In this document: positions 7,195-34,730 of the stretch, one piece after another
Numbering within the stretch: position 1 is the first letter of the stretch
Layout of the letters: every line of letters begins with the position of its first letter
The notes under the pieces: generated by a model
The model's input: only the letters and a program-made list of their open reading frames with translations
What the model was told of the DNA's origin: nothing
Databases searched by the model: none
Virus record (IMG/VR): IMGVR_UViG_3300021373_002226
Location: 1-42,819 of that record
Length of the DNA: 42,819 nucleotides
From: a virus
Direction: 5' to 3' (one strand)
Program-made: the position numbers and the translations under genes

Positions 7195-8052
7195 TTAAAA
7201 TGCAACTAAATTACCTTCTTCGAAAGCATTATAGTTAGGACCTAATTTATATGTAACATTACTACCACCACCTATCTTTTGTATAATACCAGCAACGTTT
7301 GCGGCACTCCAAAACTGAGAAAATTGTCCTGGCGAATCCTGACTACCAATGTAATTTAAAAACCCTCTCTTTGTTTTTTTAGGGGTGTCATTCATATAGT
7401 TTACTAAATCTCTAATCATAGTATCATCCTTCCTTTTAAAAGTATAACCACCTCTCATTTTTTCAAATAAAACAATCCCATTTTTTTCTGCAAAATCTTT
7501 AACTGTGCGAGAAAGATTTTCTACATCATTTGTATAATTCATACTTTTTTTAATATTAGATGCAATTCTAATTGCTTCTCTAGGTTCATAATTATCAAAT
7601 AAGTAAGATACTACGTCATCAACCATACCACCCATAATTTCTTTTAAAATTTTAGATTCAACACCCCTAATCTCAAACCTATCTACTATTAACTTTTGTA
7701 ACTTACTTAAAGAATTATATTTTTCTAATGGATTTTTATCACTACCAACTATCTCTTCTGTTTCTTCTTCTATAAAGATGTCTAATATTGGGATTAAACG
7801 GGTATCAATCCTTTGTATGTGATACCCTCTTAATCTAGGTAAAATAGTATTTTCAAACCAATCACGTATTTTCTTACTATGTTTAAACATACGTTCATCA
7901 AAACCAAATTCTTTAAAATATACATCTAACGCACTCATAGGGTTTAAAAGTTCAACCCTTTCGAAAAACTTATTAAGAAAACGTTCTTCTTTAGGGTGTA
8001 AATTATCCTCTACTATTCTACTTAATTGACTCTCTGTTAGTTTAATCTTCAT
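7195..8052 (-). CDS. Tagged protein with possible winged-helix C-terminus
   Basis: 285 residues. The N-terminus MKIKLTESQLSRIVEDN is a tag with possible cleavage after I-V-E. The body is helical. The C-terminal 60 residues (GFLNYIGSQDSPGQFSQFW, then SAANVAGIIQKIGG and VTYKLGPNYNAF) read like a compact helix-turn-helix/winged-helix domain with a beta hairpin, so DNA binding is possible but inferred. One nucleotide separates the start from the stop of the upstream gene, indicating an operon. The closest named role I can give is virion-packaged protein. Confidence 0.75.
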   Translation of the reverse strand: MKIKLTESQLSRIVEDNLHPKEERFLNKFFERVELLNPMSALDVYFKEFGFDERMFKHSKKIRDWFENTILPRLRGYHIQRIDTRLIPILDIFIEEETEEIVGSDKNPLEKYNSLSKLQKLIVDRFEIRGVESKILKEIMGGMVDDVVSYLFDNYEPREAIRIASNIKKSMNYTNDVENLSRTVKDFAEKNGIVLFEKMRGGYTFKRKDDTMIRDLVNYMNDTPKKTKRGFLNYIGSQDSPGQFSQFWSAANVAGIIQKIGGGSNVTYKLGPNYNAFEEGNLVAF

Positions 8053-8053
8053 A

Positions 8054-9154
8054 TCATAAATTACCTAATACGTTATCATTAAAATATTCTTCTACTTTTA
8101 TGTGGTTGGGATAAAAATAACCCATATCTGGAGTTCGTAACATTTCACCCTCACAATCTAATAATACTTCTATGACATTTAAAAAGTAATATTCATTATC
8201 TTGAGGAAATTCTCCTTGACACTCTAAATAGTTAATGTTGTATTCCATAAATTTATCCGTCACATCAAATTTAAGTATATGTTTATCAGAACCACCTTCT
8301 TTTTTTGATTTTACCATATCCCATTCAGGTTTAGAACCAATAACTGAAATTACTTCTTTCATCATATCCCCATGTAATTCGCTTTCTGCTGCAGATTCAT
8401 ACGCCCACCTATATAAGTTTTTCAATTCTAAGGCTAAATTACCAAACATACTTTCATTTTCAATTAACTCACCCAACAAATCATTATCTAATAACATATC
8501 TTCCCTTAACCCATCTCCATATGGGTCGTCTTCGTCATATCTTCCAGGAACACCATCAAACTGCCTACCAATAAAATTATTTTCTATAATATATTCTTTT
8601 ATGTGTTGTAAAGATTTTTCGTCTAGATTATCCCACACATCACTATCAAAATCTACATCAAACCAACCATATATATCTGGATCTCCTGACAAAACTCTTT
8701 CTGCGGTATCCCTATCATCGTCATGAAATAATATAGATAATTCCTCATAATTATCACAGATTAAATATATTTTATTCCCTTCTATTTGAATATCCCCATA
8801 AACAGATTTAGGTACTTTACGTTTATTTTCTTTTGATGGTTGTATGATAAACGTATCTAATGTAAAATATTTATCTATCCACCCTGTACCATTTAAAATT
8901 TTATAAGGGTCACTAACATTATTTCTTAAAAGGTTATCTTCTTCGTAACCAGCGTAATCAAAAGGGTCTTCACCTAAAACATTGGTGAAAAAATTAAACA
9001 CCCCAAACATAATCTCTTCATGTGAATAACTATCTGAACCTAATAACTCATCTACCTCAGATATATAATCGGGTATACTATATCCGTCATCATATTTTTT
9101 AAACAACTTACTTAATATCTTATTAAATAGTTTTAACTCTTGTGGTTCTAACAT
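8054..9154 (-). CDS. Acidic hypothetical protein, family A
   Basis: Start placed at ATG 9154 (MLEPQELKLF) because a late-type promoter lies 14 nt before it and the extra 15 upstream codons would be read from promoter DNA. 366 residues, strongly acidic with many Asp and Tyr. The segment LFHDDDRDTAERVLS and later DEKSLQHIKEYIIEN resembles FFCDDRDYGIRDMVR and DKENLGIMKEHYLKN in the protein at 30879-31838, suggesting distant paralogues. The N-terminal helix is basic but has no clear (I/L)-x-E end. Function unknown; acidic composition could fit DNA mimicry, but that is speculation. Confidence 0.75.
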   Translation of the reverse strand: MLEPQELKLFNKILSKLFKKYDDGYSIPDYISEVDELLGSDSYSHEEIMFGVFNFFTNVLGEDPFDYAGYEEDNLLRNNVSDPYKILNGTGWIDKYFTLDTFIIQPSKENKRKVPKSVYGDIQIEGNKIYLICDNYEELSILFHDDDRDTAERVLSGDPDIYGWFDVDFDSDVWDNLDEKSLQHIKEYIIENNFIGRQFDGVPGRYDEDDPYGDGLREDMLLDNDLLGELIENESMFGNLALELKNLYRWAYESAAESELHGDMMKEVISVIGSKPEWDMVKSKKEGGSDKHILKFDVTDKFMEYNINYLECQGEFPQDNEYYFLNVIEVLLDCEGEMLRTPDMGYFYPNHIKVEEYFNDNVLGNL

Positions 9155-17686: not shown

Positions 17687-18145
17687 TTAGTCTATATTTA
17701 CTTTTCTTGTGTAGGACTTTGTTTTTGTGGGTTTTTCTTTTGGTAAGAAAATAGTTGTAATACCATTCTCTGTTTTTGCGTAAATTTCTTCACTAACAAC
17801 ATTGGAAGGTAACTCAAAAGAACGTTCAAATTTATGGTAATGATATTCCTTAGTTATATATCCACCTTTATCAGTTTTATCTACTTCCTTAGAAGCTTTA
17901 AATGTTAAGGTTTCACCTTTAATGTCTACTGATATGTCCTCTTTGGTTAATCCTGGAGTAACTATCTCAAACTTATAAACCCATTCGTCTTCAAAAACAT
18001 TAGTAGGGGGTAAATTATTCTCAAAACCACTTCTTTCTCTATTAAGTGGGGTATACCTTAACCTTAGATTATTATATGTTGGGAAAACATCGTCCCCAAA
18101 AAGACCTTCAAACTCTCTCATTAAATTTAAAAAATTTTTACTCAT
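17687..18145 (-). CDS. Small heat-shock protein, Hsp20 family
   Basis: 152 residues, the usual size. Alpha-crystallin domain about residues 45-140: WVYKFEIVTPGLTKEDISVD, IKGETLTFKASKE, FERSFELPSNV and AKTENGITTIFLPK. The C-terminal tail TRKVNID could replace the usual I-x-I anchor. Hsp20 is an ATP-independent holdase; phage copies are thought to help fold virion proteins. It is two genes from a ClpC-type unfoldase, suggesting a proteostasis module. Monocistronic, with a terminator behind it. Confidence 0.93.
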   Translation of the reverse strand: MSKNFLNLMREFEGLFGDDVFPTYNNLRLRYTPLNRERSGFENNLPPTNVFEDEWVYKFEIVTPGLTKEDISVDIKGETLTFKASKEVDKTDKGGYITKEYHYHKFERSFELPSNVVSEEIYAKTENGITTIFLPKEKPTKTKSYTRKVNID

Positions 18146-18222: not shown

Positions 18223-19146
18223 TCAGGGGTTGTTAATGTGTTTACCTTTAATTTTGTAATAATTGACATCTATACCCTTTTCATCTAACATATTTTTAGG
18301 GATAAATGTCTCACCAGTATCTAAATAGTGGTTCATTCTTTTTCTACCAAAGTTAATATTAAACTCCACTAAGTCTATACCTATAAACTTTCTATTGTTT
18401 TTAAGTGATGCCACACCCGTAGTGGAAGAACCCGCAAACGGATCTAAAACAATGTCATTTTCATCACAACCTATTTTTACAAACCACTCTGCTAGTTCAA
18501 CACTAAAAGGTGCTGGATGTAAAATACCTGGATTTGTTTCTGAAGCCGCAATAACCACATTATGTGGTAATGAACCTTTAGAATTTAACTCTCTCATTTG
18601 TGAATCATATACACCATCTCTAGAATTAATTGTAGTTACTGGTTTTTCAAAACGTTTTTTAGTTACTTCAGAGTGTTCTGTTCTACAATTATCTGCCCTA
18701 AATTTTGGTTTGTTTGAATTGGAAAAATGGAAGACGTACTCATATCTGTCTATCGCCCTATATTTACAGTTTGTTGGTATGGCGTTTTTCTTAAACCATA
18801 TATAAGGTTTCGCAACCATATGCCAACCTTGTTTTCTCATCTTATACTTTAATTCATCAATAACTGGATGAACTACACCCTTATCAATTTTATCGTTTAT
18901 ATTAAGGAAGAAACTACCATTAGGTTTTAAAACTTTAAGAAATAATTCAGTAAATTCTAAAAACCAATCTGCGTAATCGTCAACGTGAATAGAACCTATT
19001 TCACCGTCATCATTACCACTATAATTTTTTCTCATTGAGAAGTAGGGTGGTGATGTAAATATCATATCCACTTTTTCATTTCTCGCAATCATATCTTTTA
19101 GTACGATTTTTGTATCACCTAATTGTAATTTGTATTGACTTTCCAT
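18223..19146 (-). CDS. Site-specific DNA methyltransferase (N6-adenine or N4-cytosine)
   Basis: 307 residues. Catalytic motif TSPPY (31-35) precedes the SAM-binding motif DPFAGSSTTG (235-244), the order of beta-class amino-methyltransferases. The short target-recognition region between them has IWFKKNAIPTN and YEYVFHFS. It modifies adenine N6 or cytosine N4; which one and the recognition site cannot be read. No restriction partner is nearby, so it is most likely an orphan enzyme protecting phage DNA or altering expression. A near-perfect host-type promoter is present, consistent with early expression. Confidence 0.92.
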   Translation of the reverse strand: MESQYKLQLGDTKIVLKDMIARNEKVDMIFTSPPYFSMRKNYSGNDDGEIGSIHVDDYADWFLEFTELFLKVLKPNGSFFLNINDKIDKGVVHPVIDELKYKMRKQGWHMVAKPYIWFKKNAIPTNCKYRAIDRYEYVFHFSNSNKPKFRADNCRTEHSEVTKKRFEKPVTTINSRDGVYDSQMRELNSKGSLPHNVVIAASETNPGILHPAPFSVELAEWFVKIGCDENDIVLDPFAGSSTTGVASLKNNRKFIGIDLVEFNINFGRKRMNHYLDTGETFIPKNMLDEKGIDVNYYKIKGKHINNP

Positions 19147-19168: not shown

Positions 19169-19200
19169 CAAAGATAATGATATTTATATAAAAAAACAAA
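19169..19200 (-). promoter_or_regulatory. Host-type promoter TTTG-N20-TATCTTTG for methyltransferase
   Basis: Minus strand: TTTG at 19200-19197, TATCTTTG at 19176-19169, spacer 20 nt. It overlaps the oppositely directed late-type element at 19181-19187. Confidence 0.7.
19181..19187 (+). promoter_or_regulatory. Late-type promoter TATTTAT for ClpC-like gene
   Basis: Plus-strand GATATTTATATAAAAAAAC, 19 nt before ATG 19207; nearly the same context as the terminase promoter. It lies inside the spacer of the divergent methyltransferase promoter. Confidence 0.45.
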
Positions 19201-19206
19201 TTTATT

Positions 19207-21666
19207 ATGAGAAATGTGTTACCAAAAGTGAAGAGAATCATAAATATGTCGTTAAAACAAGCGAAGTATTATGGTGATGATGTAGTTAGAATAGAACATA
19301 TTATAATATCATTAATTAACGATTATAATAATAACGCAATTAAAACGTTATTAAAAATGGGTGTTGATGTGGATAAACTACATAAGAAAATTGAGAAAAA
19401 ACTTATGACAGAAAAAGATGATTTTGTTGATGTTAAAACTAACTCTAAAGATATCCCATTAGACGATGTTACAGAAAACATATTAAAAGGTGCGGAAAAA
19501 GAATGTGACACTTTAAAAAATAATTATTTAGATACCCAACACATATTATTAGCATCTATAAAAGTTAAAAGTGAAATGAGTACCATTTTTAAAACTATGA
19601 AAGTTAGTTATAAGAAATGTAAGAGTAATATAGTCAGTTCTATTGAACCTGCAGAAACTGAAGGTGAGGGTAGTAGTTATAAAAAGAAAAAAATCAAAAG
19701 TAAGAATACTGAAACTCCCATACTGGATAATTTTTCCATAGACGTAACTAAAAGAGCGTCAGAAGGTAAAATTGATCCTGTAATTGGTAGAGATGACTCT
19801 ATTAGAAGAGTTGCACAGATATTGGCGAGAAAGAAAAAGAATAATCCTGTTATTATTGGTGATCCAGGTGTTGGTAAAACTACAATAGTAGAAGGGTTGG
19901 CACTTAAAATAGTGCAAGGTGAAGCACCTAGAACGTTATTAGATAAAAGAATTGTTTCTTTAGATTTAACCTCTTTAGTTGCGGGTACTAAGTATAGGGG
20001 ACAATTTGAAGAAAGAATTAAAGGTGTAGTTGATGAACTTATGGAGGTAGATAACGTAATATTATTTATAGATGAAGTTCACAATGTAGTTGGTGCTGGT
20101 AATAGTAGTGGTTCTATGGACGCTGCGAATGTATTAAAACCCGCTTTAGCGAGAGGTGATTTACAATTAATTGGTGCAACTACTTTAGATGAGTTTAGAG
20201 AACACATTGAAAAGGATGGTGCACTAACAAGAAGATTCCAACAAGTAATTATTGAACCACCTTCTGTTGAAGACACCATTAAGATTTTGAATAAAATAAA
20301 AGATTCATATGAGTCATACCATAAAGTAGACTATCCACAAGAAACCATTGAACAATGTGTTAAAATGGCAGACAGATACATTACTGATAGAGAATTTCCT
20401 GATAAGGCAATTGATATTATGGATGAGGTAGGTTCTAAAAGTCAAATTAATATTAAACCACCTAAATCTATTAGTAAATTAGAAGGTGACATCTTAAAGA
20501 TAAAAGAAAAAAAGGGTGAGGTAGTTAAAAAACAAAAATACGAAGAAGCTGCGAGACTTAGAGATGAAGAAAGAATCGTAAATGAAAAATTAGATATTGA
20601 GAAAGATAAATGGTTAGAAAGTTTATCTAAAGATAGAACACTAATAACTACTGAAGATGTTAATGAAGTTGTTGCATCTATGACAGGTATACCATTAAAG
20701 AGAATTAGTGGTGATCAGGGTAAGAGAATGTTAGATATGGAAAAAGATATGGAAAAAACCATAATCGGACAAGAAATGGCGTTGGAAAAGATTGCCAAAT
20801 CTATTAGAAGAAATAGAGTAGGTATAAGAAACCCAAAGAAACCTATTGGTTCATTTATGTTCTTAGGTCCCACAGGTGTTGGTAAAACACATATTGCGAA
20901 GAAATTGGCGGAGTTTATGTTCGGTGATGAAGATTCTCTTATTAGAATGGATATGTCAGAATTTCAAGAAAAACATTCTATATCCAGATTAATTGGTTCT
21001 CCTCCAGGTTATGTTGGACATGAAGAAGGTGGACAACTAACTGAAAAGGTAAGAAGAAAACCTTACTCTATTGTATTGTTTGATGAAATAGAGAAAGCCA
21101 ACAAAGACATTTACAATACACTATTACAGATGTTAGATGATGGACAATTAACCGATAGTGCGGGTAGAAAGGTAAACTTTAAAAACTGTATGGTAATTAT
21201 GACATCTAATGTTGGCGTTAAGAAACTAAGTGATTTTGGGACTGGTGTAGGTTTTGGTACAAAATCTAAAATGGAAAGAGAAGATGAGATAAAAGAAAGT
21301 TTATTAACTGATGAACTTAAAAAACAATTCCCACCAGAATTCTTAAATAGATTAGATGACGTTATTATATTCAAATCACTAACCAAAGAACAGATAGGTA
21401 AGATAGTTGAGTTAGAAATTAATAAATTAGTTAGTAGAGTTTCTGAAATAGGTTATACATTACAAATCAATAAAACCGCTAAAGATCATTTAGTGGAAGT
21501 TGGTTATGATGAAGAGTATGGTGCAAGACCTTTAAATAGGGCAATACAAAAACATATTGAGGATCCTGTTTCTGAAGAAATTCTAAGTGGTAGGGTAGAA
21601 GAAGGACAAACAATAAAAGTTAGTTATTCTAAGTCAAAAGAGGAAATTGTAATAAAAATCTCTTAA
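19207..21666 (+). CDS. clpC-like: ClpC-type AAA+ protein unfoldase
   Basis: 819 residues. Clp N-domain about 1-145; AAA+ domain 1 with Walker A GDPGVGKT (218-225) and Walker B LFIDEVHN; a short UVR-type middle domain (about 443-470, KYEEAARLRDEERIVNEKL) as in ClpC rather than the long ClpB M-domain; AAA+ domain 2 with GPTGVGKT (554-561), LFDEIEK and a C-terminal D2-small domain (YGARPLNRAIQKHIED). A V-G-F loop (about 681-683) aligns with the ClpP-binding loop of ClpC, so it may feed proteins to host ClpP. No ClpP gene is seen in the window. Plus strand, late-type promoter, no tag. Confidence 0.93.
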   Translation: MRNVLPKVKRIINMSLKQAKYYGDDVVRIEHIIISLINDYNNNAIKTLLKMGVDVDKLHKKIEKKLMTEKDDFVDVKTNSKDIPLDDVTENILKGAEKECDTLKNNYLDTQHILLASIKVKSEMSTIFKTMKVSYKKCKSNIVSSIEPAETEGEGSSYKKKKIKSKNTETPILDNFSIDVTKRASEGKIDPVIGRDDSIRRVAQILARKKKNNPVIIGDPGVGKTTIVEGLALKIVQGEAPRTLLDKRIVSLDLTSLVAGTKYRGQFEERIKGVVDELMEVDNVILFIDEVHNVVGAGNSSGSMDAANVLKPALARGDLQLIGATTLDEFREHIEKDGALTRRFQQVIIEPPSVEDTIKILNKIKDSYESYHKVDYPQETIEQCVKMADRYITDREFPDKAIDIMDEVGSKSQINIKPPKSISKLEGDILKIKEKKGEVVKKQKYEEAARLRDEERIVNEKLDIEKDKWLESLSKDRTLITTEDVNEVVASMTGIPLKRISGDQGKRMLDMEKDMEKTIIGQEMALEKIAKSIRRNRVGIRNPKKPIGSFMFLGPTGVGKTHIAKKLAEFMFGDEDSLIRMDMSEFQEKHSISRLIGSPPGYVGHEEGGQLTEKVRRKPYSIVLFDEIEKANKDIYNTLLQMLDDGQLTDSAGRKVNFKNCMVIMTSNVGVKKLSDFGTGVGFGTKSKMEREDEIKESLLTDELKKQFPPEFLNRLDDVIIFKSLTKEQIGKIVELEINKLVSRVSEIGYTLQINKTAKDHLVEVGYDEEYGARPLNRAIQKHIEDPVSEEILSGRVEEGQTIKVSYSKSKEEIVIKIS

Positions 21667-21670
21667 AAAT

Positions 21671-21701
21671 TTTGTAGATTAAAAACTTATTCTTATATTT
21701 G
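21671..21701 (+). promoter_or_regulatory. Host-type promoter TTTG-N19-TATATTTG
   Basis: TTTG 21671-21674 and TATATTTG 21694-21701. Part of a longer similarity with the promoters at 32254 and 34679 (TTTGxxAGxTTAAxA...). Drives the secreted DUF2927-like gene. Confidence 0.75.
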
Positions 21702-21720: not shown

Positions 21721-22329
21721 ATGAAAAATTTAATCACATTATTATTAGTATTAGTATCTGTTAGTAGTTATTCACAAACTGAAGTAGTAAAGGAATATTA
21801 TTATGAGATTTGTAGTAAAACTGAGTGGAGTGGTGAACTTACACCTACAAAATATAAAAAAGACATTAAGATCTTAGTTGGTGGCGATAAAAATGAAATT
21901 TTAATTTCTGAATTAAATAAAATTGTTTCTGAACTGAATGTACTAATTGAATCTATAAATATTAGTGTTACTGAAGATAGAAATGATTATAATATATTAG
22001 TTTATTTTGGTTCACCAAATAATTATATGGGATATATAAAAGACTTTAGTGACTCTGAAATATTGAAAACTAACTGGGGGTTGTTCGCATTGTACCCTTC
22101 AAGTTATGATAAAAGTGAAATTTTATTTTCAGAAGTTTTTATTAATACTATAAATACTAGAAATGTTAAACAACAAAAACATCTACTAAGGGAAGAACTA
22201 ACTCAGTCAATTGGGTTTCCCAATGATAGTTATAGATACGAAAAAAGTATTTTCCAACAGAAATGGACTGAGGTTACAGAATATTCTGAAATAGATAAAG
22301 AGATAATAAAAATGCACTATAATCTATAG
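21721..22329 (+). CDS. Secreted DUF2927-like protein
   Basis: 202 residues. Signal peptide KNLITLLLVLVSVSSYSQ, with likely cleavage before Gln 19, typical of Bacteroidota. The mature part ends in LLREELTQSIGFPNDS followed by YEKSIFQQKW, which fits the DUF2927 pattern (a metallopeptidase-like family of unknown activity). It should be exported to the periplasm or outside, unusual for a phage protein in the middle of virion genes. Host-type promoter in front and a perfect hairpin terminator at its stop make it an independent unit, a good candidate for an envelope-modifying accessory gene. Confidence 0.75.
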   Translation: MKNLITLLLVLVSVSSYSQTEVVKEYYYEICSKTEWSGELTPTKYKKDIKILVGGDKNEILISELNKIVSELNVLIESINISVTEDRNDYNILVYFGSPNNYMGYIKDFSDSEILKTNWGLFALYPSSYDKSEILFSEVFINTINTRNVKQQKHLLREELTQSIGFPNDSYRYEKSIFQQKWTEVTEYSEIDKEIIKMHYNL

Positions 22330-22539: not shown

Positions 22540-24186
22540 TTATCTTGATGTGATTAACGAACCTAAACTACCACCGATTAAGTCTTGATACTCTTTTTTG
22601 TTTTTTGGTGGTAACGCTTCTATTCTATCATCGTCAATTGCTAATCTAATAAAGTCATCCAAGTCCAATAGTTTTTCAACTACATCCACATTAATTTTAC
22701 TAATAGGGTTACCTTTTAGATTTATTGAGAATAAGTTTGGTAACTTTTCATACCCTTTTGGGGGTGCTTCTGTGATGTCATTATTTTGAAATGACAACAT
22801 AGTTAGTGGTGCAGTCATAGGTAGTTTATCTATCGAAGGCATCTCAGTTATATTTGAACCTTCTGCCAATATCGCATCTAAATTAGTAAACTTAGTTAGG
22901 TCAGGTATAGTACCTATATTCATACCACTAAAGTCTAATCTATCTGTAGTTTCTGGATCTAAGAAGTCTGTTACTACAACACCATCAGTATTTTCCATTA
23001 ACCACTTTAAGTATTTGTTTTGTTGTAATGGTACATTTTGTTCACCAGCTAATTTTCTAATATTCGCCACACCCTCTTCGAATGCTTCAGGACTAATATG
23101 ATCGGAAGCTTTACCACCCACCATATTTAAGTATTTAACGTATGAGCTATCCATAAGTCCTTTACCACCTCTAGCGTCCATTTCTACCAACGCACCCAAT
23201 TCATCTTTAAGAAAATTATTAAGTCCTGGAAACCTTTTTAATATTTCTTGTAACCTACCATTACGCTCAATAGAACTATTGTTTTTATCGTGCCATTGAT
23301 TGGATTCGAAATGGATTTGTAATGGGAATACCCCACCTTCATCATCACCATCAAAAAGTTTCTTAGGCATTACTACGTAATAATCGGATAATGAACCATC
23401 AGGTTTCTTTCTTTGTCTATAAGAATCAAAATAACTATTACCTTCTCTTCTTGTACACCAAGAAGCTAACGGACCTAGTGGTTCACAACTAGATTCTATA
23501 GTCTGTGGCATATATACTAATACATCATTATCCCTATAAGCCAATTTAGCTTCACCTAAATCAATATACTTTTTAAGTTTTTTCCAAAGTTTACTTTCAC
23601 CATCATCATCATCATCATCGTCATCACCCATTCCAACAAAAGGACTAACTACAGAATATAATTGTGCTAAAGTACTATATTGGTTAATGTCTGTAACATT
23701 TTGTGGTGCGTTTGGTCTATTAGGTGCACTTCTTTTAAATACCTTTTTATTTTTTACTTTATCGAATACTTCTAAGAATTCATTTGCTTCGGGTAAATCT
23801 TCAGACAAAAATCTAATTGCTTGTTCGATTTCACCTTCTTTAATATGTGTCATAAACACTTTTATCATCCACTGAACATATTGTTTATTACTTGATGGGT
23901 CAGCATCTACTATATCTTCAAATATTAAATCAGTTAACTTAATAGATTGTTTATTCTTTTTAGTTACGATATACGCAATATCTATACCCTCATGATTTTC
24001 AATAGGTTCAACTTTAAACTTTTTAGGTTTCATCCCACCAGGTTCTCTCTCACCATCTTTTTCATCTTCACCCTCAACTGATTGATCTAATATTTTAGGA
24101 TCAATAACATTTTGGTTTTTTAAAAAGGTTACTCTATCCTCTTTCAATAATATTTTGTATTGATTTTCAGAAATAATGTATTTCAT
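22540..24186 (-). CDS. Tagged leucine-rich-repeat protein
   Basis: 548 residues. Tag MKYIISENQYKILLKE (L-K-E). Acidic linker about 190-200 (a run of Asp). A middle domain around residue 235-300 has SWCTRREGNSYFDSY, DYYVVMPKKLFDGDDEGG and FPLQIHFESNQWHDKNN, a pattern I know from phage proteins without assigned function. The C-terminal part (about 405-520) has leucine-rich repeats: TIPDLTKFTNLDAIL, LTMLSFQNNDITEAP, LPNLFSINLKGNPISKI. LRRs bind proteins, so a packaged, injected effector is possible but unproven. Late-type promoter 17 nt upstream. Confidence 0.8.
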   Translation of the reverse strand: MKYIISENQYKILLKEDRVTFLKNQNVIDPKILDQSVEGEDEKDGEREPGGMKPKKFKVEPIENHEGIDIAYIVTKKNKQSIKLTDLIFEDIVDADPSSNKQYVQWMIKVFMTHIKEGEIEQAIRFLSEDLPEANEFLEVFDKVKNKKVFKRSAPNRPNAPQNVTDINQYSTLAQLYSVVSPFVGMGDDDDDDDDGESKLWKKLKKYIDLGEAKLAYRDNDVLVYMPQTIESSCEPLGPLASWCTRREGNSYFDSYRQRKKPDGSLSDYYVVMPKKLFDGDDEGGVFPLQIHFESNQWHDKNNSSIERNGRLQEILKRFPGLNNFLKDELGALVEMDARGGKGLMDSSYVKYLNMVGGKASDHISPEAFEEGVANIRKLAGEQNVPLQQNKYLKWLMENTDGVVVTDFLDPETTDRLDFSGMNIGTIPDLTKFTNLDAILAEGSNITEMPSIDKLPMTAPLTMLSFQNNDITEAPPKGYEKLPNLFSINLKGNPISKINVDVVEKLLDLDDFIRLAIDDDRIEALPPKNKKEYQDLIGGSLGSLITSR

Positions 24187-24236: not shown

Positions 24237-25049
24237 TTATTTTCTTTTAACTGGTTTTTTAGCCCAACGAGTATCCGTATCCCTACCGAACTCATGAATT
24301 AATCCTAATTCGTGTGAAACCCAACTATCGTTACCAACACCCCAAGATGGTATTATTACTGATGGGTTATAATAATGCGTTGCACCATTAGTGTTATCCG
24401 AAAAGTTTGCACCTGACAATAATAATTTCGCATATTTTATTGCAGTTTCCCAAGAGTCATCCTCATATGACCTTTCTTTACACAAAACAGTATTTATCCC
24501 CACCCCTTTATAATCATTCCATCCAGAAAATTGTGAAGATTCTAATACGACATCCACTGGTGTCATATTACGTATATAAACTCTATTTGCAATTATATTA
24601 GATATAGCTTTAATTTCTTTTTCTTTATCTCTAGACATTTCCATAGTTAATGTAATCGCCAATATTTTTTCATCTTCTGTTAATTCTTCTGGCGATTCAA
24701 ATCCTAACTTTGTCAATAACTTACGACCAATATTAACAGGACATTCAAATTCTTTCTTACCATTAGTGTAATACATACCAATTGCCTTAGCAGTAGTAGG
24801 ACCAAAAGATTTATCTGCGGTAAAATTATTATCTATTACCCATTTTTTAGTTTTTGGGTTTTTATTTAACTCTTCTATTAATCTTTTTTGTACTAAATAA
24901 AGTGGACTTTTATCACCATCTTGATTTTCATAACATTTAACCATTTTATTACAATACCATATATCATTAAAAGTTACATTACTTTTTGTATATTTATTTT
25001 CGTTTAAAATTATCCTTTCTAGCTGGTTTTCCGTTATAATAATTTTCAT
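24237..25049 (-). CDS. Tagged cell-wall hydrolase, SleB-like
   Basis: Start set at ATG 25049 (270 residues) rather than 25133, because MKIIITENQLERIILNE is a tag ending L-N-E and a late promoter ends 4 nt upstream. Residues about 48-92 resemble a small peptidoglycan-binding fold (LYLVQKRLIEELN, then SFGPTTAKAI). Residues about 125-260 match the SleB/Hydrolase_2 pattern: ITLTMEMSRDKEKEIKAISN with a likely catalytic Glu, ANRVYIR, SSQFSGWND and GATHYYNP, then HELGLIHEFG. It cleaves peptidoglycan. Either endolysin or entry lysin; the tag favours virion packaging. Confidence 0.85.
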   Translation of the reverse strand: MKIIITENQLERIILNENKYTKSNVTFNDIWYCNKMVKCYENQDGDKSPLYLVQKRLIEELNKNPKTKKWVIDNNFTADKSFGPTTAKAIGMYYTNGKKEFECPVNIGRKLLTKLGFESPEELTEDEKILAITLTMEMSRDKEKEIKAISNIIANRVYIRNMTPVDVVLESSQFSGWNDYKGVGINTVLCKERSYEDDSWETAIKYAKLLLSGANFSDNTNGATHYYNPSVIIPSWGVGNDSWVSHELGLIHEFGRDTDTRWAKKPVKRK

Positions 25050-25053
25050 ATTT

Positions 25054-25060
25054 ATAAATA
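25054..25060 (-). promoter_or_regulatory. Late-type promoter TATTTAT, leaderless spacing, overlapping HNH start
   Basis: Minus-strand CATATATTTATAAATATG: element ends 4 nt before ATG 25049. The divergent HNH gene starts at 25062, so both starts share about 13 nt. Confidence 0.5.
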
Positions 25061-25061
25061 T

Positions 25062-25499
25062 ATGGGAATTCCAATAAAAAACAATAAAAATAGACGTAAA
25101 AATGGTAAAAATACCGCTAAAAGTAGTCTGCATAAGAGAAAAACGGATAAAATTAGGTACTCAATTCGTAAAATTACAAAAAAATACCCAAAAATCAAAC
25201 AAAAAATCAAAAATATTAAGGATTTAGACAAAAAGTTGTATTATGCGATGGTTTGGGAGGTTACAGAACAACAACCTTTATATATTTTGGAAAATTCTGA
25301 CAAAAGAGGGTGGAAAAACCACCATTTAGACCATATTTACCCCATTTCTATGGGTTATAAAGAAAAAATCCCACCAGAAAAGGTAGGAAATATCAAAAAT
25401 CTAAGATTTATTCACTATACAGAGAATTTAGATAAAGGTTCTAAGATAACAAATGAGTCTAGGAATGCATTAAGGAGGATTAAACGTTTAAAAAAATAA
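25062..25499 (+). CDS. Free-standing HNH endonuclease-like protein
   Basis: 145 residues, very basic N-terminus (about 70 residues rich in Lys/Asn). The C-terminal half carries an HNH pattern: HHLDHIYPISMGYKEKIPPE, then VGNIKNLRFIHYTENLDKGS, i.e. His-Asp-His ... Asn ... Asn-x-x-Lys. Such genes are often homing endonucleases in T4-like phages. It is wedged between two minus-strand tagged genes: its ATG abuts the lysin promoter and its last 12 nt overlap the end of gene 25488-26351, as expected for an inserted selfish element. No promoter of either class lies in front. Confidence 0.8.
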   Translation: MGIPIKNNKNRRKNGKNTAKSSLHKRKTDKIRYSIRKITKKYPKIKQKIKNIKDLDKKLYYAMVWEVTEQQPLYILENSDKRGWKNHHLDHIYPISMGYKEKIPPEKVGNIKNLRFIHYTENLDKGSKITNESRNALRRIKRLKK

Positions 25500-26351
25500 C
25501 CCTTTATCTATTACATAGAACATATTACTATTTTGACTATCAGGTACACCGAAAACATTTAATTGTTTTATTGATTTACCTTTATAGGTTTTAATCATTT
25601 CATAGAAATCGTTATGATCCAAATTTTCTTTATACCATTCACATAAATCATCTCTATCCCAACCTAAAGAATCTATTGGGTAGTGCCAATATGTATAAAA
25701 ATAACTTTTTTCACTATCCAAACTATCAAAAGAAACTCCCCACTCCTCTTGAAATTCCTCATCTTCCATTTTTTCTTCTACATCTGGTAGAATATCCCTC
25801 CAAAGACGCTCTTTAGTATTTTGATACCAATGATCCGCCTTATTCTCTAAATATACGTCCCAAAAATACCTAAAAAAATCGTCATTACATCTTATATCAT
25901 TCACTTTACCATATACATAATCCCATAAGTCAGAATCGGTGTGAACCACATCAACTTTCATATCGTCACCACCATGACTTAAAATAAACTCTATAAAATA
26001 TTTAATTGCTTCTGGCCTACGAATACCCATCTCAGATAACAACATATTATAATATTTTAATTTACCTATTTCCTCAATATACGTTTTATCGGTAGATAAT
26101 GCAATTCTTAATGCATTAGATAAATCATCTAATTTATCGTTTTTAAGGTATCCATACAATTTGTCTAAGAATTTTTCGTAGTTTTCACCTAATACGTTGT
26201 TAGCTAACTTACCATCATCATTTCTAAGATCAGTGAGTTGCTTATATCTTAAATTATAACTTCTTTTTAATATAGTATTAGCGAGTTTTTTTTGTATCTC
26301 TTTAGATACCTCTTCTTTTAATATATTTCTTATAGACTCACTTAGTTTCAT
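25488..26351 (-). CDS. Tagged acidic hypothetical protein
   Basis: 287 residues. Tag MKLSESIRNILKE (L-K-E). The middle has many Trp, Tyr, Asp and Glu (RLWRDILPDVEEKMEDEEFQ, YWHYPIDSLGWDRDDLCEWY), similar in flavour to the acidic proteins at 8054 and 30879. No catalytic motif seen. Its ATG lies 1 nt after the final stop of the broken ORF at 26353-26547. Confidence 0.75.
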   Translation of the reverse strand: MKLSESIRNILKEEVSKEIQKKLANTILKRSYNLRYKQLTDLRNDDGKLANNVLGENYEKFLDKLYGYLKNDKLDDLSNALRIALSTDKTYIEEIGKLKYYNMLLSEMGIRRPEAIKYFIEFILSHGGDDMKVDVVHTDSDLWDYVYGKVNDIRCNDDFFRYFWDVYLENKADHWYQNTKERLWRDILPDVEEKMEDEEFQEEWGVSFDSLDSEKSYFYTYWHYPIDSLGWDRDDLCEWYKENLDHNDFYEMIKTYKGKSIKQLNVFGVPDSQNSNMFYVIDKGLFF

Positions 26352-26570: not shown

Positions 26571-27083
26571 TTAATTCATGTTTAACCTACTTCGGTATCT
26601 ACCATGAACTGATTGAAACATCAATGACATTTTTTCTATCATATCTTCAATACTTTCTATTTGACTTAAAACTGATTTAATCAGTTCCGTTTTAGTCATA
26701 TCATAAGACATACCTATTTTATCCGAATAAAGTAGTCTTAAATAATTTTGTATTCTTTTTAGGGATAACTTATACTCAGTAACTAAATCTTTAAAATCTG
26801 CATCTAAATAAATCTCACCCTTTAACCTATCTATCATATCCACATCCAGATCTATTTTCATAGTTAGGTTGGATATGAAATTAGTTACCATTTCTTTATT
26901 TTCTAATTTACCTTTCGCAGCCATTTCTACAAAAGATTGTAATACTTCAACTGTGGAAGCTAATGTTTGCAATAAAGGCGCCTGTATACTCTGTGCATGT
27001 TTATTCATGATATCTCTATCATCATACCCACCCACCTCGTTGAGTACTTTATTTAGTTGGGATTCTGTTATCCTTATTTTCAT
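26571..27083 (-). CDS. Tagged helical protein
   Basis: 170 residues. Tag MKIRITESQLNKVLNE (L-N-E), then GGYDDRDIMNKHAQ and a helical body (VLQSFVEMAAKGKLENKEMV, SQIESIEDMIEKMSLMF). No known motif. Late-type promoter 14 nt upstream. Confidence 0.75.
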   Translation of the reverse strand: MKIRITESQLNKVLNEVGGYDDRDIMNKHAQSIQAPLLQTLASTVEVLQSFVEMAAKGKLENKEMVTNFISNLTMKIDLDVDMIDRLKGEIYLDADFKDLVTEYKLSLKRIQNYLRLLYSDKIGMSYDMTKTELIKSVLSQIESIEDMIEKMSLMFQSVHGRYRSRLNMN

Positions 27084-27380: not shown

Positions 27381-27818
27381 ATGAAACTTTATGATTTAAT
27401 AAATGAAGAAAAATATACTTTTAACGAAAAAGGTGATTTATATAATAAAGAAGGGTTGTTAATCGAATTAATAGATGAAAACAATTCTGTGGTAGGTAGG
27501 ACTACTCTATATTCACCTTATTTCGGTGGTGTCATAGATAATGAGTATTATGATTTATATAATAATAATGAAAATTTAAATACTGATAACTCATTATATC
27601 TTTTTGATTTATTTGTAGAACCTAATAATAGAAATAAAGGGTGTGCGGGTAAAATAATAGATAAATGTAAAAATATAGTTAAAGATAATAATCATCAGTA
27701 CCTTTGTTTAATTAGTGATATATCTAATTTACCAGCTAAAAGTTTATACGAAAAACATAGTTTTAATGTTGATTATGAAGATGATAAAAAAATATTTTAT
27801 ACTCACAAAATAAGATGA
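27381..27818 (+). CDS. GNAT acetyltransferase with packaging-type tag
   Basis: 145 residues from ATG 27381. GNAT motif A is visible: LYLFDLFVEPNNRNKGC then AGKIIDKCKNI (the R/Q-x-x-G-x-G/A acetyl-CoA loop), followed by NLPAKSLYEKHSF. The N-terminus MKLYDLINEE ends in I-N-E and resembles the start of T4 internal proteins (MK-Y----I-E, from memory). It is the only plus-strand gene with both a tag and a late promoter. If packaged, it could acetylate host proteins on injection. Overlaps the DUF192 gene by 4 nt. Confidence 0.8.
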   Translation: MKLYDLINEEKYTFNEKGDLYNKEGLLIELIDENNSVVGRTTLYSPYFGGVIDNEYYDLYNNNENLNTDNSLYLFDLFVEPNNRNKGCAGKIIDKCKNIVKDNNHQYLCLISDISNLPAKSLYEKHSFNVDYEDDKKIFYTHKIR

Positions 27819-28216
27819 AATTATTAGATTTAGTTTTAAAAGATGTTTCTGTACCATTTAAAAAATCTTGTGAATTAACAATAACTAATTGTAATGGAAA
27901 AGAAGTTGTTGTTAATTGTGAGATACCATCTACCGATGAAGAGAAAATGACTGGTTTAATGTTTAGAGATAGTCTATGTGATAATTGTGGTATGTTCTAC
28001 GATTACGTTGATGGTGGTTTTTGGATGAAGAATGTTAATTTCCCAATTGAAATGGTTTTCATTAACGGTGATGAAATTGTGGACATTCAAAAAGCGTTAC
28101 CACACGATGAAACCTCTATTAAACCATCTGTAGAATCTGATGGTAACTTAGAAGTTAACGAAGGTTTTTGTGAATCTAATAATATATCTGTAGGAAACAA
28201 AATTTACATATCGTAA
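27815..28216 (+). CDS. DUF192-family protein
   Basis: 133 residues. Typical DUF192 core: EEKMTGLMFRDSLCDNCGMF, then GGFWMKNVNFPIEMVFINGD and EIVDIQKALP. The function of the family is unknown. A phage copy translationally coupled (ATGA) to an acetyltransferase is uncommon. The 3' end overlaps the convergent metalloprotease gene by 13 nt. Confidence 0.85.
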   Translation: MKLLDLVLKDVSVPFKKSCELTITNCNGKEVVVNCEIPSTDEEKMTGLMFRDSLCDNCGMFYDYVDGGFWMKNVNFPIEMVFINGDEIVDIQKALPHDETSIKPSVESDGNLEVNEGFCESNNISVGNKIYIS

Positions 28217-29244
28217 ATCTTTGGATTAATTTTTCCAAATCTTCTGACTAATACACCCGCTTTAGCGTTCGCCTCATCTTCCCAAGGAGAACCATCTTCA
28301 CCCTCTTCTGGATTACCCCTTAAATCTCCTCTCAAATTTTGTTGATGATGAATCATTTCGTGTGCGATGGATCTTATGATATCTGCGTCCGCCCTATCTT
28401 TCGTTAAAACGTTTATTTCGTTGTCTAACATATCATAGTTCGCAAGTGTCTCAATATCGTCACCATTACTTGTTAAATTGACTCTAAAGTCATCATCTAA
28501 AGATAGTTCTTTCTTACCAAACTCAATAAAATCATCAATAACTGACTCATTAATTTTTTTTATACTTTTTTGTGCAGTAGATGTGTAGTTTGATAATAGA
28601 CCTAATTCACTTATTCTTTGTGGTAATTTATACATAAAAGATTCCACTATACATTCTATTAAGCCACTATCTTCTATACCATAGTCTTTCTTAATAACTC
28701 TCATAATTTCAATCCTATTACCTTGTCCAGAACAACCACCTATTGTGTAAGTCTCATTTACGTAATTATATTCTAACCCACAACCAAAATTACAATGTTT
28801 CATTCTGACTAAAATATCTTTGTTTGGTAAAACCCATTCCCCACTATCACCTAAATTTTCATCGAATTCAATTTTACCCTTTTCTGTTTGATAATGTAAC
28901 CAATCATATACTACCTCCATTGAAAATTCATCCCAATCATAGAGATCATCAGGATTGTCCATTTTATAGTAATATCCTTCATCGTATGGATCTTCTTTAT
29001 CGTAATCATAACCCCAACCCAATTCATTAATAATTTCGTTATTAGACCTTATATCGTCTAATTCTTCGTCTAATGCGTAAATATCATACAATTCACCTAA
29101 AGTACCAAAAGTATAAGGTCTATTATCATCCTCAACTTCTTTAATATATACATCAGATAAAAGTCTATTCACAACTTTATCACAGAATTTTTTATCAACT
29201 CCCTCTAACTCCTCTTTTATTATTTTCCTAATTAATCTTTTCAT
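28204..29244 (-). CDS. Tagged zinc metalloprotease-like protein
   Basis: 346 residues. Tag MKRLIRKIIKE (I-K-E). The central 200 residues are acidic and Tyr-rich (EEELDDIRSNNEIINE-like). Near the C-terminus, IRSIAHEMIHHQQNLRGDL holds HExxH (HEMIH, about 295-299), and 22 residues on WEDEANAKAG provides a candidate third zinc ligand Glu (about 322-324), as in gluzincins. A protease packaged in the head and delivered to the host, or one acting inside the prohead, are both possible. First gene after a cluster of tagged genes from 30855. Confidence 0.8.
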   Translation of the reverse strand: MKRLIRKIIKEELEGVDKKFCDKVVNRLLSDVYIKEVEDDNRPYTFGTLGELYDIYALDEELDDIRSNNEIINELGWGYDYDKEDPYDEGYYYKMDNPDDLYDWDEFSMEVVYDWLHYQTEKGKIEFDENLGDSGEWVLPNKDILVRMKHCNFGCGLEYNYVNETYTIGGCSGQGNRIEIMRVIKKDYGIEDSGLIECIVESFMYKLPQRISELGLLSNYTSTAQKSIKKINESVIDDFIEFGKKELSLDDDFRVNLTSNGDDIETLANYDMLDNEINVLTKDRADADIIRSIAHEMIHHQQNLRGDLRGNPEEGEDGSPWEDEANAKAGVLVRRFGKINPKIYDM

Positions 29245-29262
29245 TTAATTAATTTTATAGTA

Positions 29263-29496
29263 CTATTCACTAAATAAGTACTCAGTATTTCTAAATACCT
29301 CTTCAAGTATCTCAGTTAAATCATCATAGTTAAGTGTACCATCAAAACCCATTCTATCTGCATAATCTAATGTACTTATCATTTCAGATGTAATGGTGTT
29401 AATTAATTCATTCTTTACTAGTTCTTTACCATCGAAATAATGTTCATTAAGTGATATCTTTTCCTCTTTTAATATTTTTTTGATTCTATTTTTCAT
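29263..29496 (-). CDS. Small tagged protein
   Basis: 77 residues. Tag MKNRIKKILKE (L-K-E), then an acidic helical body (LNEHYFDGKELVKNELINTI, DDLTEILEEVFRNTEYL). Tandem with a gene having a near-identical tag (29497-29790). Function unknown. Confidence 0.7.
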   Translation of the reverse strand: MKNRIKKILKEEKISLNEHYFDGKELVKNELINTITSEMISTLDYADRMGFDGTLNYDDLTEILEEVFRNTEYLFSE

Positions 29497-29790
29497 TTAA
29501 CTATATTTTTTTATAATTTCGTTTATTTTATTAATTATGTTCATACTTTCATCTCTTTCTTCCCACACTTTATCATTACCACTCTGTATTGACATTCTTA
29601 ACTTTTCTAAGTCTCTTATCATATCTTCATTGTTAGTTTGATATGCGAATTGTATTGCAGACTCTATATATCTAAGTCCCTCTGCGAAACTATCTGCCGC
29701 CTTATGTAGTAAATCAATACTAATCTCAGTAATATCTTTAGTTTCTGTTTTAAACTCTTCTTTTAATATATTCTTTATTAATCGTTTCAT
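29497..29790 (-). CDS. Small tagged protein
   Basis: 97 residues. Tag MKRLIKNILKE (L-K-E), sharing its form with 28204-29244 and 29263-29496, as if the tag itself had been duplicated. The rest is a helical bundle (DLLHKAADSFAEGLRYIESA). It overlaps the upstream gene by 4 nt. Confidence 0.7.
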   Translation of the reverse strand: MKRLIKNILKEEFKTETKDITEISIDLLHKAADSFAEGLRYIESAIQFAYQTNNEDMIRDLEKLRMSIQSGNDKVWEERDESMNIINKINEIIKKYS

Positions 29791-30878: not shown

Positions 30879-31838
30879 TTAATAATGATCTATCCTATCC
30901 AATAATATCTCATTAAAATACTTCCAATCAATATCACCCGCACCACCATATCTAAAATGTTTATAGGTGTTTATTGATATACAATCTTCTGGTAAGAAAG
31001 AGTTGTATTCCATTCCCCACCCTTCTCTTTCGTCCTCCAGTATACCATCTAAAATTTCTAAAAATGTTGGGTATCCATGTGTTAATTCTGCGTTCAGTTG
31101 TGATTTAAATCTTTCTGATGATGCAATATCACCTAATTCTACTTGTCCTACGTATTCTAAACCAAATCCTTTAACACCTCCTTCATCTGTTTGATTTTGT
31201 AAACCCCCATCAAAATTGGATAAATAATCTGTTATACCTTCTTCGAAGTCTGAGTGTAATGCATCTATGTCCGCACTATGTTGAGCGTCCCCTAATGCAC
31301 AACCAATATAATCACCAAACTCTTCTTCAACAAATTCTTTAAAATCTTCTTCAGAAGGTTCACCCTCTAAATTCTTTAAATAATGTTCCTTCATTATACC
31401 TAAATTCTCTTTATCTATTTTATCAAAATAGTGATCGTCATAATCATAACAATCGTAATGTGCACCATAATCATAATCAAAACTAAAATATTTTCTAACC
31501 ATATCTCGAATACCATAATCTCTATCATCACAAAAGAAAGATGACATTTCCGAAGGGAAAAAACTAATTTTTATATATGAATTGGGTCTATCTTTATGTT
31601 CAGTTAAATATTTATAGATTATATTACTTTCTAGGTCCGTAGTTTGAATATTTTTATCATCAAGCTTTAAATTCTGTAAAAAATCAAAAATAAAATTAGG
31701 GTTAGATTCTATATGTTTATCAAAAATTCTGAATATCTTTTGATATACCTTTTCAGGGAACATTTGTTTTTCGAAGATTGTTTTATCATCTTCATTATCT
31801 TCATCATATTCCCTTAATATTTTTCTAATTAAGTCCAT
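30879..31838 (-). CDS. Tagged acidic protein, family A
   Basis: 319 residues. Tag MDLIRKILRE (L-R-E). Very acidic and aromatic (FSFDYDYGAHYDCYDYDDHY, then FDKIDKENLGIMKEH). Resembles the protein at 8054-9154 at two separated segments, suggesting a family. Function unknown. Late-type promoter 18 nt upstream, next to the divergent host-type promoter of gene 31899. Confidence 0.75.
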   Translation of the reverse strand: MDLIRKILREYDEDNEDDKTIFEKQMFPEKVYQKIFRIFDKHIESNPNFIFDFLQNLKLDDKNIQTTDLESNIIYKYLTEHKDRPNSYIKISFFPSEMSSFFCDDRDYGIRDMVRKYFSFDYDYGAHYDCYDYDDHYFDKIDKENLGIMKEHYLKNLEGEPSEEDFKEFVEEEFGDYIGCALGDAQHSADIDALHSDFEEGITDYLSNFDGGLQNQTDEGGVKGFGLEYVGQVELGDIASSERFKSQLNAELTHGYPTFLEILDGILEDEREGWGMEYNSFLPEDCISINTYKHFRYGGAGDIDWKYFNEILLDRIDHY

Positions 31839-31856
31839 TAACTAAACATTTATTTA

Positions 31857-31863
31857 ATAAATA
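31857..31863 (-). promoter_or_regulatory. Late-type promoter TATTTAT
   Basis: Minus-strand CCAATATTTATTAAATAAA, 18 nt before ATG 31838; abuts the -33 region of the divergent host-type promoter. Confidence 0.5.
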
Positions 31864-31894
31864 TTGGTTTTTAATATAAAAATTTATATATTTG
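31863..31894 (+). promoter_or_regulatory. Host-type promoter ATTG-N20-TATATTTG
   Basis: TATATTTG at 31887-31894 with ATTGG 20 nt upstream. The ATG of the next gene follows after 4 nt. The string TATATTTGTGATATGA is identical to that in front of gene 16762-16986. Confidence 0.6.
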
Positions 31895-31898
31895 TGAT

Positions 31899-32171
31899 AT
31901 GAGAAGAAAAAAAGTAAAAAGTCAAACAATTAAAAGTGATACTCCGAAAAAAAGAGAAAATATTATAGAAAAGAAAAGTCCTATAACTACATTACCTAAC
32001 AATTATAAATTAAAGTGGGATAAGGTTAAAGGTGTTAATGGTAAAATAGTAAGATTTAAAGAAGGTGATGGTGAGGAAAGAACCAAATTTTTAAACAAAA
32101 AAAATTACCGTCAAATGTTTGTTGGTGTTGACGGTAATGATTTATATTTTTATTACGAAATTTTAGGTTAA
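31899..32171 (+). CDS. Small basic hypothetical protein
   Basis: 90 residues. Lys-rich N-terminus (KKVKSQTIKSDTPKKRENII) and a C-terminal beta-rich domain (IVRFKEGDGEERTKFLNKKN, MFVGVDGNDLYFYYEILG). Untagged. Probably leaderless from a host-type promoter, suggesting early expression. Function unknown. Confidence 0.7.
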   Translation: MRRKKVKSQTIKSDTPKKRENIIEKKSPITTLPNNYKLKWDKVKGVNGKIVRFKEGDGEERTKFLNKKNYRQMFVGVDGNDLYFYYEILG

Positions 32172-32305: not shown

Positions 32306-32833
32306 ATGAGTTTCAAATCAATTAAAGACGTTGAGTCACACGCAAAACAGTTAATGGAAACAGAGTATCGAGTGGAAGTCAATGGGAAGGTTCACAGGTT
32401 GGCGCCCAATAAATTAGGATACAAATTTAAATTCGATAACGCTAAGAGACGTTTTGGGTTATGTTCTTATAGAAGAAAAGTGATAAGTCTATCAAAACCA
32501 CTCGCCACTAATAACCTAGATAACTTCTTTCAGATTAATGATACCATACTACATGAGATAGCACACGCACTTTCTTATAAGATACATGGTAGTAGAGGTA
32601 GTGGTCATTGTAAGCGATGGGTTCATGTTGCAAAGTCTATTGGTTGTAATGGTATTAGATGTTATGATAGTAGTCAGGTTAAAAGTATAGAACATAAGTA
32701 TACTTTAGTCTGTGATACATGCGGTGGTGAGAATCCAAGGTATAGAAGACCTAGACAGGATTATTCATGTGCTAAGTGTGAACCTAATAAGTTTGATGAG
32801 AGATACCTATTAAGAGTAGTACAAAACTTTTAA
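32306..32833 (+). CDS. SprT-like zinc metalloprotease
   Basis: 175 residues. HEIAH (83-87) with a further His at about 101 in GSGHCKRWVHVAK, and a C-terminal zinc ribbon CDTCG/CAKCE (Cys 136, 139, 155, 158): the full SprT arrangement. Family members (Spartan, SprT) cleave DNA-bound proteins and DNA-protein crosslinks. Untagged, host-type promoter, so probably acts early in the cell, e.g. clearing proteins from phage DNA. Confidence 0.88.
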   Translation: MSFKSIKDVESHAKQLMETEYRVEVNGKVHRLAPNKLGYKFKFDNAKRRFGLCSYRRKVISLSKPLATNNLDNFFQINDTILHEIAHALSYKIHGSRGSGHCKRWVHVAKSIGCNGIRCYDSSQVKSIEHKYTLVCDTCGGENPRYRRPRQDYSCAKCEPNKFDERYLLRVVQNF

Positions 32834-32951: not shown

Positions 32952-33148
32952 AAAATTGTATAGAGTGTCCTTGGGTTATAAGGAACAAAAATAATGACAC
33001 AATTATTAACCATTCTAAAAAATGGGGTAAGAAACATAATTGTCATATGAAGATAAAGGGTACAAATAAAAAACTTTGGGAGGATAGCCCAAAGTTTCAA
33101 TGTGTAGGTAATAAAAAATTAATATCTTCCACTAATATAAACAAATAA
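32948..33148 (+). CDS. Small Cys-rich protein with CxxCPW motif
   Basis: 66 residues. It starts MKNCIECPWVIRNKNND and has a second HNCHMKIKG cluster, then a Cys near the end (FQCVGNK), a probable zinc-binding mini-fold like the small CxxCPW proteins of phages (DUF6283-like). Coupled to the membrane peptide. Its end overlaps the convergent gene 33119-33358 by 30 nt. Confidence 0.65.
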   Translation: MKNCIECPWVIRNKNNDTIINHSKKWGKKHNCHMKIKGTNKKLWEDSPKFQCVGNKKLISSTNINK

Positions 33149-33358
33149 CACTTCTGGTATTCTAACACACTGTGACATATTACCATTACTATCTGTACAA
33201 CCAATTACCTCTAAACTCCTAACAATATTTTTAATATCTCTGTTTGCGTTTCTTGTGATATTCTCTATATATTGTTTTGAATATAATTTATCTGAATCGT
33301 AATAAGATTCCTTTAAAATGGTTTTATATTGTTTTTCATTTATAATAATTTTCATCAT
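33119..33358 (-). CDS. Small tagged protein
   Basis: 79 residues. Tag MMKIIINEKQYKTILKE (L-K-E). The start is ATG 33358 or the adjacent ATG 33355; the sequence ATGATG overlaps the upstream TGA, so translation is coupled. The mature part has two Cys (EVIGCTDSNGNMSQCVRIPE), a motif echoed in the protein encoded upstream (GCTDGNGNRLCSVIPEPI). Unknown function. Confidence 0.7.
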   Translation of the reverse strand: MMKIIINEKQYKTILKESYYDSDKLYSKQYIENITRNANRDIKNIVRSLEVIGCTDSNGNMSQCVRIPEVLFVYISGRY

Positions 33359-34245: not shown

Positions 34246-34290
34246 AAATTTTTATTTATTTTTTCATTTATATTTTACAAAACGGATTAC

Positions 34291-34638
34291 TTAATTTTTA
34301 ATCCCTGGAATATTTCTGTCATTGGGACATATATATTGACCCCCATTTGAACTCTCTACCCAGTCCACTCTCGAAGCCGCAAATCCGTTTTGGTTCCATG
34401 TTTCACCACCAAACTTAAAATTAGTAACATATTCTTTACCATCCTTACAACCTTCAAAACTATCGCTCCCATATCTTTCTTTACACATTGTACTATAATA
34501 TTTATCATAGTTAAAATCACCATCCTTACAAAATTGTTTTTCTAAAACGTTTGTAGATTCATTTAATACTCGTTTAACGATTTTTCTTAAATCACTTTCG
34601 GTTAGATTAACAACTTTTCCGTTTTTTTTAATTTTCAT
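34291..34638 (-). CDS. Small tagged protein
   Basis: 115 residues. The tag (KIKKNGKVVNLTESDLRKI then VKRVLNE) is the near-twin of that at 2267-2539, 32 kb away. The mature part has four Cys (FCKDGDFNYDKYYSTMCKER, GCKDGKEY, YICPNDRN) and no recognised family. Late-type promoter 15 nt upstream. Confidence 0.75.
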   Translation of the reverse strand: MKIKKNGKVVNLTESDLRKIVKRVLNESTNVLEKQFCKDGDFNYDKYYSTMCKERYGSDSFEGCKDGKEYVTNFKFGGETWNQNGFAASRVDWVESSNGGQYICPNDRNIPGIKN

Positions 34639-34653
34639 ACGTATTATTTTAAT

Positions 34654-34660
34654 ATAAATA
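34654..34660 (-). promoter_or_regulatory. Late-type promoter TATTTAT
   Basis: Minus-strand AATATATTTATATTAAAA, 15 nt before ATG 34638, divergent to the host-type promoter at 34679. Confidence 0.5.
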
Positions 34661-34678
34661 TATTAATTTTACTAAAAA

Positions 34679-34710
34679 TTTGGAAGTTTAATATATTTGC
34701 CGTATATTTG
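34679..34710 (+). promoter_or_regulatory. Host-type promoter TTTG-N20-TATATTTG
   Basis: TTTG 34679-34682, TATATTTG 34703-34710; followed 20 nt later by the ATG of the secreted glycosidase-like gene. Confidence 0.75.
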
Positions 34711-34730
34711 TTATATAAAAATAAACAGTT

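Follow-up and report, generated by a model that had tools for sequence, protein, structure and literature searches.

A ClpC-type unfoldase with a putative ClpP-docking loop in a lineage of large T4-related Bacteroidota phages

The clpC locus and its product

The window, i.e. the whole stretch of 42,819 nucleotides analysed here (IMG/VR record IMGVR_UViG_3300021373_002226), carries a clpC-type gene that diverges from a DNA methyltransferase gene, with promoter elements on both strands between them (Table 1).

Table 1. Features of the clpC locus and related features in the window
Feature	Position	Strand	Remarks
clpC-type unfoldase gene	19207-21666	+	819 aa, ATG start, intact
N-terminal domain, diverged	19207-19656	+	residues 1-150; 26% identity to Bernardetia ClpC versus 66% in D1
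D1 AAA+ module	19723-20265	+	residues 173-353; Walker A G218-K224; Walker B D289 E290
UVR-like core of the short ClpC-type middle domain	20497-20571	+	residues 431-455; modelled coiled coil 420-475
D2 AAA+ module	20719-21372	+	residues 505-722; GYVG pore loop
VGF tripeptide of the putative ClpP-docking loop	21247-21255	+	V681-G682-F683; from alignment
Late-type element of clpC, ATATTTATA	19180-19188	+	27 nt before ATG; kept in seven relatives
Putative host-type promoter of the methyltransferase, TTTG-N20-TATCTTTG	19169-19200	-	both boxes kept in seven relatives
N6/N4 DNA methyltransferase	18223-19146	-	divergent from clpC
Hsp20 small heat-shock protein	17687-18145	-	neighbour of clpC
DUF2927 protein	21721-22329	+	signal-like N-terminus; behind clpC; own host-type promoter 21671-21701
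Terminase large subunit (TerL)	5358-7163	-	tree matches clpC tree; late-type element at -21

Pfam matches in the product follow each other in the order of the ClpC layout: Clp_N (residues 18-64), AAA (216-346), AAA_lid_9, UVR (431-455), AAA_2 (545-718) and ClpB_D2-small (725-805). Both AAA+ modules have intact Walker A and Walker B motifs. The Clp_N match covers the first N-terminal repeat, and the predicted model shows two helical repeats. The short UVR-like middle domain described in the initial annotation was recovered by a Pfam UVR match that lies barely above the cut-off (22.0 versus 21.5 bits), by a modelled coiled coil and by its length. Aligned with bacterial ClpC, ClpB and ClpA, it corresponds to the ClpC type of approximately 50-60 residues, whereas the ClpB insert has about 60 residues more and is about twice the size. 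The predicted model (mean pLDDT 81) contains the expected middle-domain helices, and the solved structures most similar to it are ClpC chains from ClpC/ClpP complexes. When solved proteins were ranked against the window protein, ClpC of Staphylococcus aureus (776 bits) and of Bacillus subtilis (approximately 754 bits) outscored every ClpB (approximately 700 bits or less). ClpB identity was rejected because the middle domain is short, the docking loop is present and the protein is placed away from ClpB in the tree (see below). Hence ranking, alignment, tree and model all favour the type originally proposed: the gene product is a ClpC-type two-ring AAA+ unfoldase and not ClpB. The protein belongs to a known family, ClpC, and PHROG 4871 matches it over its whole length (E = 3e-256), the PHROG name 'ATP-dependent protease' being a family label only. 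With the ClpC proteins of B. subtilis and S. aureus, which work as ClpCP, it has in common the N domain, two AAA+ modules, the short UVR-type middle domain, the PhiGF loop and the fold, and it would be expected to form a hexamer. It differs from them in being phage-encoded and in its strongly diverged N domain, to which the adaptors of the host may not bind; in some viral relatives the N domain is missing entirely.

The docking loop reads DFGTGVGFGTK in the window protein and D/E-F-G-x-G-[VI]-G-F in Bacteroidota ClpC, while ClpB has nothing comparable in the alignment. The aligned counterpart of its VGF tripeptide in S. aureus ClpC is the AGF 671-673 loop, which docks into ClpP in the MecA/ClpC/ClpP structure and whose alteration abolishes the interaction (PMC12521514). 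The V-G-F loop pointed out in the initial annotation thus occupies the place through which ClpC contacts ClpP in solved structures of the complex. By homology with these proteins, it would be surface-exposed in a D2 hexamer, as the initial annotation requires. In the predicted monomer, loop residues 680-685 are disordered (pLDDT below 50), as expected of a free, flexible docking loop. A docking tripeptide of the form [VIML]G[FY] was present in 112 of the 115 rows of the viral clade, including relatives without an N domain. Judged from its sequence, the capacity of the window ClpC to dock to ClpP is well supported, and the two proteins would be expected to degrade protein as a hexameric machine.

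Several other window genes were recorded. The portal coding sequence comes as two overlapping frames (3382-4548 and 4542-5303, both on the minus strand), through either a frameshift introduced by sequencing or a genuine split. Genes for a DUF192 protein (27815-28216), a SprT-like protein (32306-32833) and a NAGPA-type protein (34731-35423) lie on the plus strand, the latter two with host-type promoters. At least 20 window proteins share a short basic or amphipathic leader that ends in (I/L)xE (e.g. MKIIITENQLERIILNE and MKRLIKNILKEE); they include the products of the ORFs at 2267-2539, 22540-24186, 24237-25133, 25488-26351, 26571-27083, 28204-29790, 33119-34638, 38300-39190 and 42379-42723. 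These leaders resemble the capsid-targeting leaders that the T4 gp21 protease cleaves; a homologue of this protease is encoded at 917-1606. By this analogy, many of the leader-bearing proteins are possibly internal virion proteins. ClpC has no leader of this type.

Distribution and descent of the viral clpC

Scans of IMG/VR with two relatives yielded 506 and 493 confirmed stretches encoding ClpC relatives (overlapping sets, in which one contig may count more than once; approximately 500 stretches). A T4-like terminase was found on 34 of 46 tested records of contigs with a clpC relative. Among moraphages, large aquatic phages with predicted Bacteroidota hosts, more than 80% of the genomes carry a Clp ATP-binding subunit (PMC12619734). 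These numbers, together with the existing PHROG, contradict the initial view that phages rarely carry a full two-domain ClpC. By description only, moraphages are like the window's lineage: T4-like large phages with predicted Flavobacteriia/Bacteroidota hosts, a core Clp ATPase (VOG02072, occurrence 24; there called ClpA) and, in some, HSP20 (PMC12619734). Chaperones and a Clp protease have also been reported for bS21-encoding Bacteroidetes phages, which are large and come from freshwater; the accessible part of that description gives no ClpC type, docking loop or promoters (PMC9723584). With the nearest sequenced isolates at just 28-33% identity in TerL, the lineage of the window is an uncultured one.

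A tree built from the two motor modules placed the window protein in a viral clade with an SH-aLRT support of 99, which neighbours Bacteroidota ClpC (the bacterial ClpC sample being a thin one from plasmid-collection records) and is far from ClpB. For 29 contigs with both genes, 17 of 26 splits were common to the ClpC and TerL trees, compared with at most 3 after shuffling of labels. The position of clpC is fixed in approximately 110 loci, a number that includes several reads of the same contig: the gene is divergent from a module with g16762, g16463, g15003, g12414 and the terminase. In contrast, only the window's clade and the two loci L139 and L195 have the methyltransferase gene between g16762 and clpC, and among close relatives Hsp20 is found only in L002, L004 and L007 besides the window, being absent from L005, L006, L017 and the 126-kb record. 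The fixed place of clpC and the patchy occurrence of its two neighbours indicate that clpC is an old resident and the neighbours are later insertions. The Hsp20 gene noted earlier as lying close by does exist, but its proximity is not conserved among relatives and hence carries little weight; Hsp20 as a functional operon partner was dropped because of the four records without it.

Among bacterial proteins, those nearest to the window ClpC are Bacteroidota ClpC, which would suit a recent capture from the host without any special role. However, the best bacterial identity is only about 51%, and the viral clade is a deep one whose ClpC diverged together with TerL and holds a fixed genomic place. 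On the strength of the tree placement and the ClpC/TerL co-divergence we rejected recent capture, which is extremely improbable. Rather, vertical inheritance within a lineage of large T4-related Bacteroidota phages accounts for clpC. In one close relative (L003, approximately 8001-8280) the clpC frame is broken early, the first ORF having 92 residues and the rest lying in another frame, due to either sequencing error or decay.

Interleaved promoters between clpC and the methyltransferase gene

The flavobacterial -7 box is TAnnTTTG (PMC9723704), and this box precedes 9 of the 47 window genes, compared with 2.2 expected. The octamer ATATTTAT was found in sense before 16 of the 47 gene starts (2.3 expected; none of 1000 shuffles reached this number). 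Genes preceded by it include those for the prohead protease, portal and terminase, and it is from this association with virion genes that we infer its 'late' class. Across the lineage, the late-type element occurs at TerL in 19 of 21 contigs (TerL loci L227-L247), mostly 20-29 nt before the start and without a host -7 box. The T4 late sequence TATAAATA was not enriched in sense upstream of window genes (4 versus 2.5 expected). The late-type element contains the reverse complement of this T4 sequence and is close to a flavobacterial -7 box whose last G has been exchanged. An assignment of the octamer at 19181-19188 as a T4-type TATAAATA facing the methyltransferase gene was considered and rejected: the T4 sequence is unenriched in sense, ATATTTAT(A) is enriched and TerL carries it.

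On the opposite strand, the putative methyltransferase promoter fits the flavobacterial sigma-A type, with a -7 box TAnnTTTG and a -33 TTTG at a distance of 17-23 nt. Matches of the type TTTG-N20-TATCTTTG number 8 in the window, compared with 3.6 expected. The late-type element of clpC lies within the 20-nt spacer of this promoter, in accordance with the initial annotation, and the minus-strand -33 and -7 boxes as well as the plus-strand ATATTTATA are all kept in seven related loci. Within the clade the spacer occurs in three variants with three variable columns, all outside the late element, which is a weak test of selection. From the overlap of the promoters, it is plausible that early and late firing would be mutually exclusive. 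This exclusion would be specific to the window's small clade, because clpC of most relatives has a host-type promoter where one is recognisable: of 38 distinct clpC upstream regions in clade members outside this branch, 21 contain a host-type TTG-N17-24-TAnnTTTG (3 of them also ATATTTAT) and 17 contain neither, and the late-type element alone was found in none of the 38. On these sequences, the promoter class of clpC appears to have switched in the window's branch from host-type to the late-type element of the lineage. In the window's clade clpC would thus be read from a phage late-type promoter, whereas in many relatives it would be read from a host-type one, and the late-type promoter suggests that the protease would act during virion production. 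A more far-reaching proposal, in which the phage runs its own ClpCP, re-timed from host-type to late-type, and the shared 32 bp form an early/late toggle that separates methylation and phage proteolysis in time, appears doubtful to us.

Two more divergent pairs in the window (31838-31899 and 34638-34731) oppose a late-type element to a host-type promoter; in the former, the -33 region and the late element seem to overlap.

The late-type promoter and the place of clpC beside the terminase module would also suit an unfoldase or disaggregase that aids virion assembly without ClpP, perhaps together with Hsp20, and such a role in assembly has been suggested for Clp ATPases of jumbo phages (PMC7824862). 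The docking tripeptide, however, is conserved across the entire viral clade, the gene lacks the long middle domain of ClpB, and Hsp20 is not conserved. We regard a ClpP-free role as quite improbable.

ClpP partner and target set

All nine related contigs of the clade with a length of at least 200 kb encode a phage ClpP; two of them (G059 and G061) look like one virus, so that they represent eight distinct viruses. The catalytic Ser, His and Asp of ClpP are kept in the 16 aligned phage copies, drawn from the clpC clade and from other huge phages. In the relatives, clpC and clpP are 52-181 kb apart, as calculated from their coordinates. ClpP was not found in the 43-kb window or in the contigs of the closest clade, which are fragments of at most 126 kb. 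From clpC, the window extends approximately 20 kb in each direction, and the longest closest-clade contig approximately 60 kb; as these contigs are shorter than the spacing seen in the relatives, the absence of ClpP says little, and we dropped it as an argument for host docking. Further ClpP copies were observed in huge phages: four of them (W01, W06, G031 and G040) have two or three ClpP genes each, some shortened, and G059 and G061 have a second copy with an in-frame stop.

According to the initial annotation, the VGF loop implies docking to the ClpP of the host and thereby redirected host proteolysis. The loop does fit the signature of Bacteroidota ClpC and might equally fit the ClpP that Bacteroidota hosts own, and the contigs of the closest clade are without a phage ClpP. 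Moreover, there is a precedent for a phage steering host ClpCP in SPO1 Gp53, which hijacks it from the adaptor side, as an adaptor-like protein for host ClpC and not as an unfoldase (PMC6873191). Yet docking to host ClpP does not follow from the loop, because all long relatives encode a ClpP of their own, and the closest-clade contigs are too short to judge. We therefore consider a host partner possible but rather unlikely. Most likely, the window ClpC would feed substrates via its D2 VGF loops into the barrel of a ClpP that is the phage's own and is encoded outside the 43-kb contig.

The N domain has drifted more than the motor. Bernardetia and B. subtilis ClpC, which are equally far apart in D1 (66%), still share 34% identity in the N domain, compared with 26% for the window protein and Bernardetia ClpC. 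In S. aureus, the N domain of ClpC takes adaptors and represses the machine, and ClpC without it has a looser resting state and binds ClpP without an adaptor (PMC12583610). One viral subclade (L008-L021 except L017, i.e. L008-L016 and L018-L021) has lost the N domain while keeping the middle domain and the VGF loop. By analogy with S. aureus ClpC, the drifted N domain of the window protein and the lost one in this subclade would fit altered targets or looser control. In bacterial ClpC, adaptors and substrates are received by the N domain; as that of the window ClpC drifted more than the motor, its target set would probably be the phage's own.

As we infer its partner, timing and substrates, the most likely reading of the window ClpC is a phage-run ClpCP protease produced late in infection. 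The fuller account, a vertically inherited phage ClpC, probably paired with the phage's own ClpP, under a late-type promoter in this clade and with its own target set, seems to us probable, if by no means certain. What this analysis adds to the known family is that long relatives pair their ClpC with a phage ClpP, that clpC co-diverged with the terminase and that its promoter class appears to have changed in one branch. If this account is true, a large group of uncultured Bacteroidota phages owns an entire energy-dependent protease that belongs permanently to the genome instead of being borrowed from the host, and the expression class of this protease changed within the lineage. This would give a handle on the purpose of phage-run proteolysis, early host takeover versus late virion assembly. 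The lineage-wide late-type element may also make the early and late gene sets of these phages predictable from sequence.
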